Notes under the pieces: model-generated | What the model saw: the letters and a program-made list of their open reading frames with translations, nothing else | The model's database searches: none | What the model was told of the DNA's origin: nothing | Part shown: positions 4,842 to 49,726 of the stretch, piece after piece | Layout of the letters: every line of letters starts with the position of its first letter | How positions within the stretch are numbered: position 1 is the first letter of the stretch | Position numbers and translations under genes: made by a program | Assembly: GCA_019695345.1 (NCBI GenBank) | Contig: JAIBAE010000010.1 | Span: 1-64,000, forward strand | Direction of reading: 5' to 3' | From: Bacteroidota bacterium | GTDB taxonomy: Bacteria > Bacteroidota > Ignavibacteria > Kapaibacteriales > NICIL-2 | Length of the DNA: 64,000 nt

Positions 4842-4886
4842 TAGTATTGTAGCAGAGATTGTTATCAGATGTATTTGTTTTTGTTG

Positions 4887-4956
4887 TTCTCGCATCTGCC
4901 GAAGCAACCCTTCAGCACCGCAACCCGGTCGGGAAAAAGCGGCACAGCGTCGCAGT
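4887..4956 (+). repeat. B-type half-element (left-facing)
   Basis: Mini-hairpin TGC-CGAA-GCA, then CACCGCAACCCGGTCGGG and GCGGCACAGCGTCGCA. Near-identical to 1621-1693. With the inverted B copy at 6416-6481 it brackets the two orphan genes at 5072 and 5694. Confidence 0.8.
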
Positions 4957-5004
4957 TTTATTAGTAGTTTGCAAAACAGAAAACAATCAATAGTTGTAGA
5001 AACC

Positions 5005-5050
5005 TTCGTCATGACGAACTTTACAAACTAACGAAGTCATGACGTAACTA
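5005..5050 (+). repeat. C-type inverted repeat
   Basis: Contains the perfect palindrome CGTCATGACG and, 20 bp on, GAAGTCATGACGTAACTAG. The second half matches the CGAAAGT-CTGACGTAAC core at 47594-47630 and, less well, 46657-46693. It lies just upstream of an orphan gene, as does the copy at 46657. Confidence 0.5.
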
Positions 5051-5071
5051 GAAATTGGGGGCAAGTTCAAA

Positions 5072-5500
5072 ATGCAAGTAAAATTCTTGATTTTGTTAAT
5101 ATCAACAGTAATGATTCTGTCGTTTTTAAGTTGTTGGACTATTGACCAACAAATTATTAATAGTCATAATGAAATCATTTTAAAGGTACTTTCTAACCCA
5201 AAGATACTCTATAATAATATACAAACAGCAAATTGCTACTATAGCCCTGGGAAGTGTACTGTTTGTGTTGATAAATATGTTAATACTATTGAAAAATACT
5301 TTCCCTTTAATAATTATTACCGAACAATATCTTACCCTTTTGATTGGAATGGAGACTGTGAGGACATCTTTATCAAGAGCACAAAAGAAGAAGAACGTTA
5401 TATCATATTCAGCTTTTGTAGGAAAAATAGAAATGATTCTATGTGGATTATGAATATACTTTTTAATGATAAAGCTGAAAAGTTGGACAGCATAGATTAA
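5072..5500 (+). CDS. Hypothetical small lipoprotein, Cys-rich
   Basis: 142 residues, not recognised. The N-terminus is a lysine-containing hydrophobic signal ending in a lipobox-like FLSC (Cys about 21), so a lipid-anchored envelope protein is plausible. The mature part has a cysteine cluster (CYYSPGKCTVC) and further single cysteines (DCEDI, SFCRK), suggesting disulfides or metal binding, but no known motif. Codon use is more A+T-rich than neighbouring core genes. It sits in a 1.5 kb islet bracketed by inverted B half-elements. Confidence 0.55.
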   Translation: MQVKFLILLISTVMILSFLSCWTIDQQIINSHNEIILKVLSNPKILYNNIQTANCYYSPGKCTVCVDKYVNTIEKYFPFNNYYRTISYPFDWNGDCEDIFIKSTKEEERYIIFSFCRKNRNDSMWIMNILFNDKAEKLDSID

Positions 5501-5693
5501 ATCATATGTTTGTTCTTTCAGGTTCCGTCATGAATTGTGTTATCAAGCAAGAGAAAATTGAACAACCACCAGGGTTTTACGCTGTGATAGGAGTAAACGA
5601 AGTGTTTCCTGACACACGTCGCCACCAAGTCTTGAAGCCCTTCGCTTACTCAAGAAGTCCTGCCGGAACTGAAATTTTATAAAAAGGAGTTAA

Positions 5694-6140
5694 ATGTTTA
5701 AGATAATTTTATTGGTTGTTTTCTTTTTTTTAGGGATTAACCTACATGCTAACCAAGAAAGTAAAGATAAAGTTAGTATTGAAAACATAACTATTTATTA
5801 CACAGATTTTCAAAATGAGACTTTTGCTAATGTTAGTTGTAATGACTTTAAATCAGAGTTTTTTTTGGATCTAAAAAGTATAATTATATATAATCAAAAA
5901 ATTATAGCCGATATAATAATGTTAATTAAGAAGTTAGAGCCAGATACTGCCTATGAAGAAATAGATGCAAGGGCAAAAATTGAAATAACTTATTCTTATC
6001 TAAAGAAAGATGTTTTGTGTATAGATATGTTTACAACAATGTTAAATGGTCAGCAAATGAAAAATGATGAAGGTTTAATAAAAAAAATCAGAGATATTGT
6101 TTATCAACATAGTAGAAAAAGAAAACATAGGATAAGATAG
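5694..6140 (+). CDS. Hypothetical secreted protein, A+T-rich
   Basis: 148 residues, not recognised. Signal peptide MFKIILLVVFFFLGINLHA with likely cleavage after LHA. A strong Shine-Dalgarno (AAAAAGGAG) precedes the ATG. The mature part is Lys, Ile and Asp rich with a basic C-terminus (SRKRKHRIR). The gene is visibly richer in A+T than nearby core genes, which suggests recent acquisition. Second gene of the islet bracketed by B half-elements at 4887 and 6481. Confidence 0.5.
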   Translation: MFKIILLVVFFFLGINLHANQESKDKVSIENITIYYTDFQNETFANVSCNDFKSEFFLDLKSIIIYNQKIIADIIMLIKKLEPDTAYEEIDARAKIEITYSYLKKDVLCIDMFTTMLNGQQMKNDEGLIKKIRDIVYQHSRKRKHRIR

Positions 6141-6290
6141 ATAGAGTTAATAGCATTGATTTAGCCTATCTAATATTTCAAGTTCTATCAGGTCTTCCGA
6201 GTCTTCGAGGGCGACCTGACGGGTGTTGTATTACGAATTACGATTTATGGTGCGCAACAATAAAACAAGATTGACCTGCAAAATGTAAAA

Positions 6291-6306
6291 ACGTTCCGCG
6301 GAACGT
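6291..6306. repeat. Perfect 16 bp palindrome
   Basis: ACGTTCCGCGGAACGT is fully self-complementary and could be an operator or a cruciform. No T-run of terminator quality follows on either strand (only CTTT on plus). It lies in an otherwise non-coding stretch. Confidence 0.5.
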
Positions 6307-6415
6307 CTTTACGATAGAATGGATTATGTTGATACGCTCCCCAGTGAGTTTTGTTTTTCACTTAGCCGTAAGCTAAAAACAGACGGCAATTATAACTTGA
6401 TATAACATAATCTTC

Positions 6416-6481
6416 TGCGACACGCATTGGTTGGTTCGGACCGGGTTGCCGCACAGGTGCGGTTGCTTCGGCAGAGGAGGG
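6416..6481 (-). repeat. B-type half-element (right-facing)
   Basis: Reads TGCGACACGCATTGG then GGACCGGGTTGCCG, a small CCGCAC/GTGCGG hairpin, and GGTTGCTTCGGCAG at its outer end, the reverse complement of the B terminus. It ends 12 bp before the hpnD stop codon. Confidence 0.8.
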
Positions 6482-6493
6482 AAACACAAAAAA

Positions 6494-13129: not shown

Positions 13130-14002
13130 TTATTGAACAGCAATTAGTTCTTCCTCAAGTTCCATTCGTAAGGTTATATCCTTTAACTGACTATACCGCT
13201 GAATTGAGTAAGGAATCGTATCCAAACCCGATGCAAACTTTAAAATGTAATTGTAGATACCAAGCAAACTTCCGGCTAATAGGTTTTCTCCCGCTAAGTC
13301 GGTGGCCATCATCAATGAGTAGGTAATTACTACCAACACCATCAATTCCATAAACCCAAAGTTCCATGCTTCTTGGTCGGAGATGCAAATCTGTGATGTA
13401 CGTAATTGCTGATAGTAACGTTGTATTTGATTAGGGTCGCCTGTAGCAATTACATCAACCTGTTCTTCTAATTGGTCGTTTTTAATACGGTTGAGTTTCT
13501 TCATTTTCTTACCGTAAAAGTAGCTTACCGCCATAACTGGAATCATGATTAACAAACAGATTCCTACTACCTGACGTTCGTAGAAATAGAGGAGGATTAA
13601 CGAGCCAATAAGATTATACGCTGCTTCGATAACATAGCGTAAATCATATTCTAAAAAGTCAACAAACTCTCGTGCAAGTGTAGAGTGTGCGCTAAGTTTG
13701 GAAACTTCCGAAGCATCGAACTTCCTAGAGAGTAATCGGGTTACTATTGTTGTATAAATAGAAGTGTACGTACGGGTATCATACATGTGCCGTATTGAAC
13801 CAATAATCAACCACGCCAAATGGGTTGATGCAAGTACTATCAATCCTTTGTACGAGCCCTCAAAAATGTCATCCATCGCCTTACCAAGAAAGTACGGGCG
13901 AAGTAGGGTTCCAAGCATTTCCAACCCAAATAACGTATATGTTATAATGAGCTGAAACTTATGCTTTAGAAAGACTGATTTGAGTGATGTAAATCTGGAC
14001 AT
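13130..14002 (-). CDS. ABC-exporter-type six-helix membrane domain without ATPase
   Basis: 290 residues. It resembles the transmembrane half of type IV ABC exporters: about six hydrophobic helices (near 15-35, 50-70, 125-145, 148-165, 215-235, 240-260) joined by charged cytoplasmic loops (KKMKKLNRIKNDQLEEQVD). No Walker A, signature or Walker B follows; the protein stops naturally after the sixth helix, with no ATPase remnant downstream before queG, 7 bp away and convergent. Stand-alone domains of this kind are annotated in Bacteroidota. It may pair with a separate ATPase or be a non-transport membrane protein. Confidence 0.7.
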   Translation of the reverse strand: MSRFTSLKSVFLKHKFQLIITYTLFGLEMLGTLLRPYFLGKAMDDIFEGSYKGLIVLASTHLAWLIIGSIRHMYDTRTYTSIYTTIVTRLLSRKFDASEVSKLSAHSTLAREFVDFLEYDLRYVIEAAYNLIGSLILLYFYERQVVGICLLIMIPVMAVSYFYGKKMKKLNRIKNDQLEEQVDVIATGDPNQIQRYYQQLRTSQICISDQEAWNFGFMELMVLVVITYSLMMATDLAGENLLAGSLLGIYNYILKFASGLDTIPYSIQRYSQLKDITLRMELEEELIAVQ

Positions 14003-14051
14003 TTGATTTTTAATACCACATCAGTGATAACCGCTGTTTGTAGCTGTAGAG

Positions 14052-14112
14052 TTCTCTCCGGCAGTAGAAGGTTTAATTGGAATGAAACACAGATTGCCGT
14101 CTGCGTTAGCAA
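14052..14112 (+). repeat. A-type half-element (right-facing)
   Basis: CTCCGGCAG at the left, TTGCCG near the right, ending TGC-GTTA-GCA directly at the aldehyde dehydrogenase terminator. Confidence 0.75.
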
Positions 14113-14144
14113 AAACTCCCATAAAATTTAATCTATGGGAGTTT
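14110..14144 (-). terminator. Rho-independent terminator of the aldehyde dehydrogenase gene
   Basis: On the minus strand an 11 bp stem AAACTCCCATA / TATGGGAGTTT followed by TTTTTGC, 14 bases after the stop codon. Confidence 0.85.
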
Positions 14145-14157
14145 CTGTATGTTGAAT

Positions 14158-15639
14158 TTAGTAGTTGTCGATTTGAGCCCGTTGCAATCCGCCGCTGTAA
14201 TCTATGTACACTGTTTTCCATTCGGTAAAGATGTCGAATACCGTCCAGCCACCTTCGCGGTGACCGTTTCCAGTTCCTTTAATTCCGCCAAAAGGCATGT
14301 GCGCTTCTGCACCAATGGTTGGGGCGTTAATATATGTTATGCCTGCTTCGATTGAACGAATAGCAGAGAAAGCCAGATTAACATCGCTTGTGTAAATAGA
14401 GGAGGAAAGACCGTACTCACAATCGTTTGCAAGTTCAATTGCATGACTGTACGAGTTTGCCTTAGATACCGATAACACCGGACCAAATATCTCTTCTTTA
14501 AAGATGCGCATATCGTTGGTGACATCGGCAAATACAGTTGGTTGAATAAAGTTTCCATGTTCAACATCTGCGCCTTCTGCCTTTGCACCACCGGTAACTA
14601 AACGTGCGCCTTGTTCTTTACCTATTTCAATATACCCTAAGATTTTTTCGTATTGTTTTTTGTTGATTACCGGACCAACCTGCGTTGAATCTTCCAGTCC
14701 CGCACCAAGTTTTAAGGCAATAGTTTTTTCAGTTAACTTTTGTAAAAAGATATCGTACACATCTTTATGAACAATTGCGCGGGATGTTGCTGTGCAACGC
14801 TGACCTGTTGTACCAAACGCACCCCATAACACACCTTCTATTGCTAAATCTATATCTGCGTCGTTCATAATAATCACAGCGTTTTTTCCGCCCATTTCAA
14901 GCGACACTTTTTTGTTTAACGCTCCGCAACGCTCTGCAATTTTTTTACCTGTTACGGTGGAACCTGTAAATCCAATTAGCTTAACATCGGGATGCTCAAC
15001 AATTGCAGAGCCTGTTTCACCCAGACCATGAATGACATTAAACACACCTTTAGGAACTCCGGCTTCTTCTAATATCTCAGCAAAAATATTTGCCGACATT
15101 GGCGAATCTTCCGATGGTTTCCAAACAATGGTATTTCCGCAAGCAAGTGCCGGTAAAATTTTCCAGGATGGTACAGCAATAGGGAAGTTCCATGCAGTAA
15201 TAATACCACACACACCAATTGGCATTCTGAACGAAAGATTCATTTTGTTAGGCATTTCGCTAGGGGCTGTGTAACCAAACAATCTGCGGGTTTCGGTTGC
15301 AGAATAATACGCGGTATCAATTGCTTCCTGTATATCACCTTTAGTTTCAAAAACTGGTTTACCCATTTCGCGCGTCATCACTCTTGCCAATTCGTCTTTT
15401 CTACGGTTGAAAATATCACCCGCCACACGTAAAATATCTCCACGTTTCGGGGCAGGCATTGCGCTCCAAACTTTATATGCCGTTGAAGCTGCCTCAATAG
15501 CTTTTGCAACATCAGCATTGCCGGATTTAGGAAATGTGCCAATAATATCGCGGGAATCCGCCGGATTTACATTCTCAAATGTTTCTCCACTGGCCGATTC
15601 CGTCCATTCTCCATTCACATAATTCTTAAAATTGCTCAT
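14158..15639 (-). CDS. NAD(P)-dependent aldehyde dehydrogenase
   Basis: 493 residues from MSNFKNYVNGEW; 11 codons further upstream are open but look non-coding. Family landmarks: cofactor site WNFPIAVPSWK and KPSEDSP, glycine motif FTGSTVTG, general base Glu in LEMGGKN, catalytic Cys in GQRCTATSRAI, and EEIFGPVLSV. Closest in style to semialdehyde dehydrogenases of amino-acid and sugar-acid breakdown (alpha-aminoadipate or ketoglutarate semialdehyde types). The exact substrate cannot be assigned. Single gene with its own terminator, divergent from bshC. Confidence 0.87.
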   Translation of the reverse strand: MSNFKNYVNGEWTESASGETFENVNPADSRDIIGTFPKSGNADVAKAIEAASTAYKVWSAMPAPKRGDILRVAGDIFNRRKDELARVMTREMGKPVFETKGDIQEAIDTAYYSATETRRLFGYTAPSEMPNKMNLSFRMPIGVCGIITAWNFPIAVPSWKILPALACGNTIVWKPSEDSPMSANIFAEILEEAGVPKGVFNVIHGLGETGSAIVEHPDVKLIGFTGSTVTGKKIAERCGALNKKVSLEMGGKNAVIIMNDADIDLAIEGVLWGAFGTTGQRCTATSRAIVHKDVYDIFLQKLTEKTIALKLGAGLEDSTQVGPVINKKQYEKILGYIEIGKEQGARLVTGGAKAEGADVEHGNFIQPTVFADVTNDMRIFKEEIFGPVLSVSKANSYSHAIELANDCEYGLSSSIYTSDVNLAFSAIRSIEAGITYINAPTIGAEAHMPFGGIKGTGNGHREGGWTVFDIFTEWKTVYIDYSGGLQRAQIDNY

Positions 15640-44645: not shown

Positions 44646-46292
44646 ATGAGTTTACCGCTTCGCGTAGCATTTCTTTGGCATCAACATCAACCATATTACC
44701 GCAAAGACGATGAGTTTGTATTACCGTGGGTTCGCCTGCACGGAATAAAAGATTATTACGATTTACCCGCACTGCATTGGGAATTCCCTGAACTGCGAGT
44801 AACGTACAATATAGTGCCGTCGTTACTAATGCAATTGCATGAGTATAAGGAGGGGATTACCGATTCCATTCAACGCCTAACCGAGATTCCTGCAGAACAC
44901 CTTAACGAACAAGAGAAGCGCGACATCGTAACACAGTTCTTTATGTGTAACCACGAAACGATGTTACATCCACTTGCCCGTTATCAGGAGTTGTATCAAC
45001 GCGCCATAACCGAAAACTCATTGCAAACATTTCAAACGCAGGATTGGTTAGACCTGCAAGTGTTGTATAACCTAACGTGGATTGGCGCGCTTTCGCGCAT
45101 GGAACCTATTATCCAATACTTGTTCCGCAAAGAGCGCAATTATACCGAGCAGGATAAACGTATTCTTATCAGCCGTCAGCGTTTACTACTCAACGCCATA
45201 ATACCGGTTATGAAGGAACTGCAACACGCAGGTCTGGCGGAGTTAAGTGTAACGCCGTTGCATCATCCAATCATGCCATTACTTATCGATACCGATTCCG
45301 CATTAGAGGCCACGCCCGATATACTTTTACCGCAGCACCGTTACACGCGGTTAGATGATGCCGACTATCAGTTACAACGCGGGCAACTGATTTTTGAACA
45401 GAACTTTGATGTAGCCGCAAAAGGTGTGTGGTGTTCCGAGGGAAGTGTAAGCGAGCCAACTTTGCGCTTACTTGCAGAGCGTGGTGTGCAATGGACAGCT
45501 ACCGACGAACAGGTACTGATGAACACCAAACGCGAAGACTACAAACACACCGATAAATACTTCCCGCATGTTGTACAAACCAAGTACGGAAAAACCATCT
45601 CCGTGTTTTTCCGCGACCATGAGTTAAGCGATGCTATTGGCTTTGTATACCAAAAGTGGAATGCACACGATGCCGTTTCAGACTTCATCAATAAACTGCA
45701 TTCCATACGCAACACCATAATTCAGGAACATGGCGAAGATGCGTTACAACAAGCTGTTGTGCCCGTAATATTAGATGGAGAAAATTGTTGGGAGTATTAT
45801 CAGGATAACGGCATTCATTTTCTGCGCGAGTTGTACAAACGCTTAACAACCGATGAGCATCTTACAACCATTACGTTTAACGATGCAGTTACAACAATAC
45901 CAACTTCCTATACCTATACATTAGATGGCATTTGTGCCGGCTCGTGGATTTATGGGAACTTCAAGATATGGATTGGCGACGAAGAAAAAAACACTGCGTG
46001 GGATGCGTTGTTTAAGGCACGCAAACTAATTGAATCACGCCGGGTAACACGCAAGCAATGGCAGGAAAGTATGGAGCACATCTACATTGCCGAGGGCAGC
46101 GATTGGTATTGGTGGTATGGTAACGACCACAGTGCCGATACCCGTTACATGTTCGATGAACTCTTTCGTTATCACTTGCAATGTGTGTACGAACTTTACG
46201 AGGAGCCAGTTCCATCGGTGCTAAAAAAGCCAATTATGAAAAACCCGCATACAACAAACGCCATGTCTGCCATGCACAGGGTAACAGAATAA
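44646..46292 (+). CDS. Glycoside hydrolase family 57 protein
   Basis: 548 residues, no signal peptide. Begins with the GH57 hallmark FLWHQHQPYYR, then GVWCSEGSVSEPTLRLL with a candidate nucleophile Glu, an Asp in WTATDEQ, and ILDGENCWEYY. GH57 enzymes are retaining alpha-amylases, 4-alpha-glucanotransferases or branching enzymes; the cytoplasmic location suggests glycogen or maltodextrin metabolism. The precise activity cannot be read here. Confidence 0.87.
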   Translation: MSLPLRVAFLWHQHQPYYRKDDEFVLPWVRLHGIKDYYDLPALHWEFPELRVTYNIVPSLLMQLHEYKEGITDSIQRLTEIPAEHLNEQEKRDIVTQFFMCNHETMLHPLARYQELYQRAITENSLQTFQTQDWLDLQVLYNLTWIGALSRMEPIIQYLFRKERNYTEQDKRILISRQRLLLNAIIPVMKELQHAGLAELSVTPLHHPIMPLLIDTDSALEATPDILLPQHRYTRLDDADYQLQRGQLIFEQNFDVAAKGVWCSEGSVSEPTLRLLAERGVQWTATDEQVLMNTKREDYKHTDKYFPHVVQTKYGKTISVFFRDHELSDAIGFVYQKWNAHDAVSDFINKLHSIRNTIIQEHGEDALQQAVVPVILDGENCWEYYQDNGIHFLRELYKRLTTDEHLTTITFNDAVTTIPTSYTYTLDGICAGSWIYGNFKIWIGDEEKNTAWDALFKARKLIESRRVTRKQWQESMEHIYIAEGSDWYWWYGNDHSADTRYMFDELFRYHLQCVYELYEEPVPSVLKKPIMKNPHTTNAMSAMHRVTE

Positions 46293-46298
46293 CAGTAT

Positions 46299-46369
46299 GC
46301 TTCCCGCCTCTGCCGAAGCGACCGCAACTGCGCCGTCACACGGGCGGGGCAGGGCGTTACAGTTTCGCG
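46299..46369 (+). repeat. B-type half-element (left-facing)
   Basis: CCCGCCTCTGCCGAAGCGACC then CTGCGCCGTCACACGGGCGGGG. The same variant recurs at 48376-48446 in inverse, 56407 and 61233. Confidence 0.8.
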
Positions 46370-46400
46370 TTTGATGCACACCTACTTCTCAATTACATTC

Positions 46401-46513
46401 AACCCCACCCAAACCCTCCCCACAAGGGAGGGCTTCAGAATCTTCATCACTCATTCATTTGTCAACCACAACACGTCTTCTCCCTCTCCTTGGGAGAGGG
46501 CTGGGGTGAGGTC
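46401..46513. repeat. CCTCCCC..GGGAGG and CTCCCTCTCC..GGGAGAGGG repeat
   Basis: Two G/C-rich hairpins 60 bp apart; the second ends GGGAGAGGGCTGGGGTGAGG. This motif is a widespread class of bacterial intergenic repeat, seen here once. Confidence 0.65.
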
Positions 46514-46656
46514 AAAACAGACTGATGCATTCTTACCCAAGAATCTCCTTTGCCGTTGAAAAATATATATGTAAGTTTTATCAATACCAAATCGTACTGG
46601 TAGGTTTTTCCTAAGGTGACTTTACAAAAAATCAACAGAGTAAGATATGATCTCAG

Positions 46657-46693
46657 TCAATCTCCGTCAGGCGAAAAGTACTGACATCACAAG
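46657..46693 (+). repeat. C-type inverted repeat
   Basis: CCGTCAGGCGAAAAGTACTGACATCACAAG; CGTCAG pairs with CTGACa. It matches 47594-47630 at most positions. Confidence 0.65.
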
Positions 46694-46742
46694 AATATAG
46701 GAAAGCTTATCAAGACATGAATAATGTTAGGTGTGAATAGAT

Positions 46743-47480
46743 ATGAAAACAACGAAGTACCAACTGCTCGTATTTACATTTGTTTTGTTTTTACCTATTA
46801 AGGTATTTTCTCAACAGGAAATATTACGGACATATTTAGTTTATGTTAATGAAGATTTTTCAGACTGTTTACATTACAGTACATACTGTGATTGTCGTAA
46901 TAAGTTTAGGAAAGAACCTTATCTAATAATCCTGGATTCGAGTTATAATGAAAAGTCAACCAATTGTACTTTGTATTTTGGAGCCGACCTAGAGCCCTAT
47001 GAATATTATTCCATACAGCAAAAGGATGATAAAATCAATTTGTACACTCTTAAGGAGGATTCGATGGAATACTTTTGTTTGCTACAACTACGAAAGAGTA
47101 ATTTGACTGCAATGAATAAGTCTTTTTTCTCAACATTTAGACGTTTAACAATTGTGAAGTCCGTTGAACAACCCAGTGAATATGACAACAAAATCAACAG
47201 ATTAATTGCTAAGTCATTTGAGTATAGCTTAAGAATAAACGGCTATGGGACATTTAAACAACTCTTTCACACAGATAGTCTGAATTACAAATGCGATCCT
47301 ATGCATGATATAAACTATTTGAGCTTTCAGTCAGGAGAAGTAAAACATGAATATATACTTGAACAGCATGGAGATATGTTGTGCCTCTATAGTTATAAAA
47401 TTATTTTTCCAGAGCCAGATTATCCAACTTATGATATAACAAACAAAAAATTGGAGTTATCATTTATTCTGAAAAAATAA
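46743..47480 (+). CDS. Hypothetical secreted protein, A+T-rich
   Basis: 245 residues, not recognised. Signal peptide 1-23 (YQLLVFTFVLFLPIKVFSQ). The mature part is Tyr, Asp and Lys rich, with an early cysteine group (DCLHYSTYCDCRNKF, then CTLYF) that could form disulfides. Codon use is more A+T-rich than neighbouring GH57 or purB. It sits inside the 2 kb islet bracketed by inverted B half-elements, about 50 bases after a C-type repeat. Confidence 0.55.
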   Translation: MKTTKYQLLVFTFVLFLPIKVFSQQEILRTYLVYVNEDFSDCLHYSTYCDCRNKFRKEPYLIILDSSYNEKSTNCTLYFGADLEPYEYYSIQQKDDKINLYTLKEDSMEYFCLLQLRKSNLTAMNKSFFSTFRRLTIVKSVEQPSEYDNKINRLIAKSFEYSLRINGYGTFKQLFHTDSLNYKCDPMHDINYLSFQSGEVKHEYILEQHGDMLCLYSYKIIFPEPDYPTYDITNKKLELSFILKK

Positions 47481-47571
47481 TCAATCAGATTTTGTGATTT
47501 ATTTCAGTATAAACTTACATTACTTTGAATTCTTATTTAATAAAAATAAGCTACTTCATGCCAACTAAACA

Positions 47572-48105
47572 ATGGAGTTTAGTATGAAAGCTGTCAATCC
47601 TCGTCAGCACGAAAGTTCTGACGTAACAAGGGTTGTAAAAGACTTGACGAGACTTAAATATGCTTTATCCAAACTTTGTAGCCTTATTATGCTTAGTTGC
47701 TTTTTAGTTTCGTCCCTATACTCCCAACACGATAGTACTTCGAAGACTGAGATTAATACAGAAGAAAGAGTCCTAAGTTATAATAATTACTTTTTCAAAT
47801 TGGATAGTATCAAGCGATATTACCATGAAAGGTATATAACATCGAGTTGTTTAAGTAAGCAAAATTGGTTGTTATCAACAAAAGAAAGTAGTGAGAAGCT
47901 GAAATTTGGTACAATCGATATTCTAAAGGAACATCCTACTGATAATAACTTATTCATAGCGCAATTGGTTGTGACATATAAGAATAAAGATTGGAAATTC
48001 CAGAACAAGGATCAAAGATGTAGAATTCTTGTGGTAGTAGATAGCTCGTTTTTGTATAATCCATTGAAGATACAAATTGGTAGTACTTTCTTTGAATCAG
48101 GTTAA
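47572..48105 (+). CDS. Hypothetical secreted protein, probably interrupted at its 3' end
   Basis: 177 residues as the longest frame, not recognised. The first 24 codons lie on a C-type repeat and are probably not translated. A better start is TTG at 47644, giving TRLKYALSKLCSLIMLSCFLVSSLYSQ, a good signal peptide; ATG 47689 is another option. The frame ends at a TAA (48103-48105) after FFESG, but stays open for 57 more codons to 48279, so the gene may have lost its last quarter. A+T-rich, inside the B-bracketed islet. Confidence 0.45.
   Translation: MEFSMKAVNPRQHESSDVTRVVKDLTRLKYALSKLCSLIMLSCFLVSSLYSQHDSTSKTEINTEERVLSYNNYFFKLDSIKRYYHERYITSSCLSKQNWLLSTKESSEKLKFGTIDILKEHPTDNNLFIAQLVVTYKNKDWKFQNKDQRCRILVVVDSSFLYNPLKIQIGSTFFESG
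47594..47630 (+). repeat. C-type inverted repeat
   Basis: CCTCGTCAGCACGAAAGTTCTGACG then TAACAAGG; CGTCAG pairs with CTGACG across a 10-base loop. Close match to 46657-46693. Confidence 0.65.
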
Positions 48106-48279
48106 TTCAAATTTGTCTTTTCTAAAGATAGTCTTAAATTCTATAGAGTGAATGATATAGGGCTGGTGCTTCGCATGAATAAAAATACTATTGAACGTTA
48201 TGCAGTATTTCAGTATAATGAAAAGGTTTTCTCACAAGAATCGTTTATAAAACGAATCTTTACTTTTTTAGGTAACTGA
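48106..48279 (+). pseudogene. In-frame continuation of the interrupted orphan gene
   Basis: Directly after the TAA at 48103 the same frame continues FKFVFSKDSLKFYRVND and on to KRIFTFLGN before a TGA. The composition resembles the preceding protein (Phe, Lys, Ser, Asn rich). A nonsense mutation, a sequencing error or stop readthrough would all explain it. Confidence 0.45.
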
Positions 48280-48375
48280 AGGTATTGATAAAAACAGTAA
48301 GGACTCTTAAGTATATAGTCAAAAATTAACTTCAACAGTATAATAGTTAACCTTAACTATTACAAACTAATAACT

Positions 48376-48446
48376 CGCGACACTTAACGCTTGTTTCCGC
48401 CCGGGTGACGGCGCAGTACGGGTTGCTTCGGTAGTTGTGGGAACCA
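48376..48446 (-). repeat. B-type half-element (right-facing)
   Basis: CGCGACACTTAACG, then CCGCCCGGGTGACGGCGCAG and GGGTTGCTTCGGTAG. It is the reverse of the variant at 46299 and closes the orphan-gene islet, ending 2 bases before the OmpA-type stop codon. Confidence 0.75.
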
Positions 48447-48448
48447 AA

Positions 48449-49726
48449 TTATTTATAGGTAACAACTATTTCCACGCGTCGGTTTTTTTCGCGGTCTGCA
48501 TCGGTAGTGTTTGAAGTAGCAGGGAAGTCCGCGCCGAGACCTTTGGCTGTTATAACAAACTTGCCAAGATGCAGAGTGTTGAGATAACTCTTCATTGCAT
48601 CCGCACGTTGTTGTGATAGCACTTGGTTGTACTGGGTAGTTCCAAGGGAATCGCAATGACCGGTGATGCTGATACTTGGCGCAGGAACAAGCGGAATGGA
48701 AGCAAGTTCTGTAAGTTGTTGCAGGTCTTGCTTGTGGGGAACCGAACTGTTGTAATCGAAATACACTGTATATGATTTTACTTTTTGCTGCGATGTGTTT
48801 GATGTTGTTGGCTGAGTAATTCGCAGCTCTTGCGGAATGATGATTTGATATATACCAAGCCGCTCGAAGATACTATCGGTTGAAACGATAAAGCCACGCT
48901 CGCCGTTTTGGGTTAAGGTAAAACAATGGTCTATCCCTGTTGTGTTGATGTTGTTGCCAAGCGACACAGGCGCAGACCATTTCTGCCACGTGGAATCCAA
49001 CCGCCGCGATGAAAACATATCCATGCTACCTAAACTTCCGTGAGCCATTGAAGAAAAGTAGAGTGTTTGTTCATCGTAACCAATAAAGGGCGAGCCCTCC
49101 ATTGAAGCGGTGTTAATGGTTGCCCCAAGATTCTTTGGTTCGGAGTAGGTGTTGGAATTCCCTTGGCGGAATGAAACGTACAAGTCTAAATCGCCACGGG
49201 AATCATTGTTATCAATGGCAAGCAATAGTATCTTGGTAGATGGTAACATGCTTGCATAGAAGTACCCTGATTTATTCTTATAGTTTGTTATGGTAATGGG
49301 GTCGAGTTTAGACCAACCCTTTTTATTGTTGATGAGCGTATGAAACCCAAATTGTTGTTCGTTACCGTGATCGGTTGCAATGTTATGAACCACAAACGCT
49401 GTTTGCCCATCGGGCGAGAGGGAGAAGAGGACATCGCTTAATGGCGTGTTGATGGTTGGTCCGGCATTGACGGGCTCTAACCAATGGTTGCCGCCTATGT
49501 TATCGGTGTACCAAATATCATCGGGGTCGTTCACGCCGCCGATATTATCCGGATGAAACTTCCTTGAGAAATACAAACGTTTCCCATCTAACGAAAGCAC
49601 CGGCATTACTACTTTAGTAAAACTGTTTACCGTTTCGGGTAAACGTATTTTTACACGAGTTGAATCGGAACCGTAAAGTTCCGATTCAACAAGTAGAAGT
49701 AAAAGTAAGAGTGTAAGAAATTTCAT
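48449..49726 (-). CDS. OmpA-family protein with PD40/WD40-like repeats
   Basis: 425 residues. Signal peptide 1-19. Residues about 40-290 hold PD40-type beta-propeller repeats (GKRLYFSRKF, LSPDGQTAFVV, EQTLYFSSMAHGSLGSMDMF). An OmpA peptidoglycan-binding domain follows at about 315-425 (VYFDYNSS, ISITGHCDSLG, NQVLSQQRADAMKSYL, ENRR-like EKNRRVEI). Probably an outer-membrane or periplasmic protein tied to peptidoglycan, of the same broad type as T9SS-associated PorE-like proteins. Confidence 0.82.
   Translation of the reverse strand: MKFLTLLLLLLLVESELYGSDSTRVKIRLPETVNSFTKVVMPVLSLDGKRLYFSRKFHPDNIGGVNDPDDIWYTDNIGGNHWLEPVNAGPTINTPLSDVLFSLSPDGQTAFVVHNIATDHGNEQQFGFHTLINNKKGWSKLDPITITNYKNKSGYFYASMLPSTKILLLAIDNNDSRGDLDLYVSFRQGNSNTYSEPKNLGATINTASMEGSPFIGYDEQTLYFSSMAHGSLGSMDMFSSRRLDSTWQKWSAPVSLGNNINTTGIDHCFTLTQNGERGFIVSTDSIFERLGIYQIIIPQELRITQPTTSNTSQQKVKSYTVYFDYNSSVPHKQDLQQLTELASIPLVPAPSISITGHCDSLGTTQYNQVLSQQRADAMKSYLNTLHLGKFVITAKGLGADFPATSNTTDADREKNRRVEIVVTYK

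Follow-up and report, generated by a model that had tools for sequence, protein, structure and literature searches.

Why do two small, A+T-rich genes of no recognizable family lie between two ordinary genes in this Bacteroidota genome, and do the inverted repeats on either side of them form part of a unit that moves, or do they simply occupy the place where the genes came to rest? The locus lies in a window of 64,000 nucleotides, the whole stretch of DNA analysed here, and its basic layout is as the original prediction had described it, with a type B repeat opening the region, its inverse closing it, and two A+T-rich orphan genes with signal-peptide-like N-termini (judged by eye) inside. The resulting islet is 2.0 kb long with a GC content of 0.32, and the flanking genes, one for a GH57 glycosidase on the left and one for a PD40/OmpA protein on the right, converge on it. 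Coordinates of these features, and of the other islets discussed below, are given in Table 1. We consider it reasonably probable, at about 60%, that the islet represents an accessory segment of two genes sitting between members of a new REP/BIME-like repeat family.

Table 1. Features of the focal islet and of three further A+T-rich islets between facing elements; positions are those of the window unless another locus is named.
Feature	Position	Strand	Remarks
GH57 glycosidase gene (left neighbour)	44646..46292	+	GC 0.45
Left REP-like element, type B	46300..46369	+	5' start 7 bp past the GH57 stop codon; profile and alignment
Two further G+C-rich palindromes	CCCTCCCCACAAGGGAGGG 46414-46432; CCCTCTCCTTGGGAGAGGG 46482-46500		Left inner edge of islet; read in sequence
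C leader 1	46632..46736	+	Upstream of orphan gene 1; ATG at 46647, 17-codon open frame, GTCAG/CTGAC stem-loop
Orphan gene 1	46743..47480	+	245 aa, GC 0.31, no known family; N-terminus export-like by eye
C leader 2	47569..47673	+	In frame with orphan gene 2
Orphan gene 2	47572..48105	+	177 aa to first stop, GC 0.32
Right REP-like element, type B, inverted	48376..48444	-	4 bp past the OmpA stop codon; profile and alignment
PD40/OmpA protein gene (right neighbour)	48449..49726	-	GC 0.44
Facing islet, arms A1 and A2	4886-6484		GC 0.31, two ORFs
Facing islet, A3/B	L042:1325-5045		GC 0.31; 861-aa NB-ARC/STAND-type protein and 196-aa orphan
Facing islet, B/A1	L041:4979-6997		GC 0.29, three small ORFs; one weak CdiI_2 immunity match, E 0.0028, under the curated cut-off

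The repeats belong to a large family. Across the 4.56-Mb assembly there are 73 copies of the core CTGCGCCGTCAC and none of its reversed control, and a profile search identified 261 elements in 1.09 Mb of the same genome, a count that applies to this sample (the stretches around exact cores CTGCGCCGTCAC and TGCCGAAGCAAC) and is not a genome total; a covariance search scored 150 candidates in the genome. Nearly all 261 elements sit between ORFs, the gene calls in the sample being plain ORFs. The 69-nt consensus, TTTCCCnCnTCTGCCGAAGCAACCCTnCTGCGCCGCAACCCGGTCGGAACCAAnCGTTnCAGCGTCGCA, is centred on a short hairpin with a bulged base and a covarying 4-bp stem, and across 90 copies 99.7% of cells are paired and 104 are changed on both sides, with none of 500 shuffles performing as well. 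Four types are distinguished by stem and loop: B (CCG/CGG, loop TCACNCGGG), A1 (CCG/CGG, loop CAACCCGGT), A2 (CGG/CCG) and A3 (CGC/GCG). Two clear copies, one A3 and one B, are present in the nearest sister genus, and no further genome searched within the order yielded an element at the threshold used. The genus of the source is represented by one genome; in that sister genus the GH57 gene has a different neighbour, without B, and gene order there differs.

The arrangement of the elements follows a pairing rule. Pairs less than 400 bp apart are facing, with 3' ends inward, in all 51 cases and take no other orientation, and most facing pairs are of this kind, too close together to hold a gene; B is thus not specific to islets. 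The two members of a close facing pair always differ in type (same type in 0 of 46, where 30% would be expected; p 6e-8), and the same binomial applied to facing pairs 0.4-6 kb apart finds two of 24 alike (p about 0.01). Back-to-back neighbours share a type at the chance rate (14 of 43, with 14.1 expected), and co-oriented neighbours do so above chance (8 of 12 and 15 of 20). A binding of element type to one strand across whole contigs was considered and does not hold. Relative to genes, the commonest positions for the 5' end of an element are about 7 bp past the stop of a co-oriented gene and some 50-150 bp ahead of a start codon. We note that on contigs C3, C13, C31, C32, C37 and C66 single unpaired elements, in one orientation and mostly of a single type (A3 or A2), form runs from one gene boundary to the next.

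REP and BIME sequences are the closest known counterparts. In Escherichia coli they comprise units Y, Z1 and Z2, and REP families tagged with GTAG or CGTC have been described (PMC3733652, PMC2817692); published REP dimers adopt a facing orientation, are frequently heterodimers, sit under 20 bp away from the 3' ends of ORFs and may have DNA inserted between the partners (PMC3733652), and REPs are known insertion targets (PMC1525189). The B family resembles them as a high-copy intergenic palindrome, with hundreds of short units, a compensatory stem-loop, opposite-orientation pairs that face one another near ORF 3' ends, a strong preference for heterotypic dimers, and DNA sometimes inserted between partners. 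Heterodimers occur in many, although not all, REP families, and most families have a terminal GTAG or CGTC tag at the foot of the hairpin. Here the B family differs, since its consensus has no conserved terminal GTAG, CGTC is found only within the B-type hairpin and is missing from the A types, and no consistent tag stands at the hairpin foot; it differs also in its 69-nt length, in having only the 4-bp bulged covarying stem, and in the clear bias of A+T-rich DNA to its inner side. The B family is best described as a lineage-specific, previously unlisted, REP/BIME-like palindromic spacer repeat.

REPINs, which are mobilised by RAYT transposases (PMC3116915), offer a second comparison. They too are inverted repeat pairs scattered across one genome, and intact RAYT-like Y1 genes are also present in this genome, but here no element lies within about 1.5 kb of a Y1 gene, which rules out a RAYT flanked by B; the pairs, moreover, are heterotypic, with widely variable spacer length. 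In minimal mobile elements of Neisseria, genes that vary and are often rich in A+T occupy fixed gene boundaries next to small repeats, a layout resembling that of the islets. The attC sites of integrons are imperfect hairpins with a bulged base beside small orphan genes, as are the B elements at the focal islet, but most B elements lie between ordinary genes and no array of elements is seen around this islet.

The bias to the inner side can be measured. Among 146 elements outside close dimers, the inner kilobase has a mean GC content of 0.386 and the outer kilobase 0.420 (Wilcoxon p 3e-10); kilobases with GC below 0.35 number 29 on the inner side and two on the outer, and with the first 200 bp left out the imbalance persists at 27 to four. 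Likewise, GC is at or below 0.335 in eight of 24 facing intervals of 0.4-6 kb, compared with one of 71 intervals in other orientations. These eight hold mostly orphans, apart from the NB-ARC/STAND protein of L042 and the weak CdiI-like match of L041. The remaining 16 are above 0.335 in GC, and many of them hold ordinary genes such as those for a tRNA synthetase, MTHFR and a sulfate permease, which by the original prediction's own criterion counts partly against it.

Our favoured explanation is that the repeats mark places where extra DNA is tolerated. The units occupy intergenic spaces, tight on stop codons and away from promoters, and many form facing dimers of two hairpin types with 5' ends outward and 3' ends inward. 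A+T-rich accessory DNA entering such a space would survive mainly when it landed between the arms, since it would otherwise hit coding or promoter sequence, and the arms would thereby come to bracket orphan genes. Placement tight on stops and short of promoters would make inserted DNA least harmful between facing arms, and this alone would give the inner-side bias. The focal islet would be an example in a convergent-gene space, with two exported-type orphan genes sharing a common C leader, one of them perhaps decaying. The repeat itself may have been spread by a RAYT-like enzyme acting in trans, and the orphan genes, presumably gained by horizontal transfer, may have been retained because the site is harmless. 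Against this explanation weigh the B/B composition of the focal pair, the absence of an enclosing facing pair for 45 of the 54 A+T-rich segments sampled, and the missing REP tag and flanking RAYT.

The composition of the focal pair is what gives the strongest alternative its force. The two arms are complementary at 77% over 57 nt, and both are of type B, an identity found in just two of 71 facing pairs, so that the islet is less typical than the original prediction supposed. Being contrary to the dimer rule, the B/B pair may not be the two arms of one split dimer. Each convergent gene could instead have its own 3' B element, in keeping with arms that both lie 4-7 bp from a stop codon, or the arms may be what is left of two dimers, each reduced to its outer half by loss of the inner one, although a search within the islet for a remnant partner arm found none. 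The arms would then never have formed one unit, and the orphan genes would merely sit in a long convergent gap. We think this unlikely on balance, since independence does not predict that A+T-rich intervals should be so much commoner between facing elements than elsewhere, nor does it sit well with the scarcity of same-type pairs among facing elements 0.4-6 kb apart.

Neither orphan gene matches a Pfam family; searches of 395 genomes of the phylum returned no homologue except two marginal matches at 24-26% identity, and the genome itself holds no convincing one. A phage or plasmid source was considered and yielded no match, either for both genes among viral contigs or for gene 1, the only query used there, among phage and plasmid records. 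From composition and the absence of homologues alone, we infer that both genes were acquired horizontally. Structure models, with mean pLDDT of 37 and 49, are too poor for use. In orphan gene 2 an in-frame TAA at 48103-48105 interrupts a reading frame that then runs on through 57 open codons before its next stop, at 48277-48279, and the gene may thus be broken; it may be the remains of a longer gene, perhaps decaying, with the TAA being either a premature stop or a sequencing error. Type IX secretion sorting domains are present among the proteins of this genome and point to a Bacteroidota-like lineage.

Both orphan genes are associated with a C sequence, which the original prediction took for a type of repeat. 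The two focal copies are indeed homologous (76% over 38 nt, and about 100 nt in a model), sharing a conserved ATG, a short open frame and a GTCAG/CTGAC stem-loop. A dispersed mobile repeat is nevertheless ruled out, as the genome contains only three copies, the third lying on contig C109 ahead of a long gene whose product is of secreted type. All three directly precede a gene whose product is exported, as judged from sequence, and C is a leader common to a few exported-protein genes. We also note a second palindrome family, CCCTCTCC..GGAGAGGG with GGGGTGAGGTCAAA adjoining, upstream of the C leaders in the focal islet and on contig C109 (L062).

Other islets bear on whether the arms and their contents move together. 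The original prediction spoke of two loci with the same order of parts. The islet at 4886-6484 does contain two A+T-rich ORFs between arms that face each other, but it lacks C. Its first ORF, at 5072-5500, is 40% identical to an ORF at 13881-14309 in a facing islet of locus L043, and this is the only protein family common to separate A+T-rich islets. The A3/B islet of L042 is possibly a defence gene set, to judge by its STAND-type protein; a PADLOC search for defence families in the A+T-rich islets tested found nothing convincing. Inverted arms around small A+T-rich gene sets, seen at eight places in the sample, together with the family shared by two islets, are what one would expect if the B arms were terminal inverted repeats of a cassette or MITE-like transposon, moving with the enclosed genes by means of an enzyme in trans. 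We regard this as improbable, given that the flanks show no target-site duplication (3.86 shared bases, against 3.87 when shuffled), no transposase gene was found adjoining or flanked by the repeats, the arms of a pair are no more similar to each other than to arms of other pairs, and ordinary genes fill many facing intervals. The small cargo-bearing system envisaged in the original prediction is not upheld by these observations.

That B acts as an RNA element at gene 3' ends (a terminator, attenuator or mRNA-stabilising hairpin), with the orphan genes incidental, would suit its tight placement past stop codons and its covarying hairpin but is very improbable, since the gene upstream is divergent for roughly 40% of elements, which leaves no co-oriented 3' end there, no T-run lies 3' of the hairpin, an Rfam search matched no family, and the folding of five whole dimers was no more stable than that of shuffled sequences (z-scores -0.4 to 0.5), which also excludes a long stable RNA hairpin from whole dimers. 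A quite speculative idea, to which we give very little credence, is that heterotypic facing hairpin dimers are docking sites, read as folded single strands by a putative recombinase that inserts accessory genes between the arms; if true, this would amount to integron-like gene loading at hundreds of gene boundaries.

The B repeats add to the known REP-like sequences a new family, whose members were seen here only in this genome and, in two copies, in a sister genus; it is without the usual tags and yet obeys the same unexplained heterodimer rule as REPs. They also display a measurable polarity, with A+T-rich accessory DNA on their inner side, and this polarity opens to test, through comparison of strains, the idea that spacer repeats serve new genes as landing zones.
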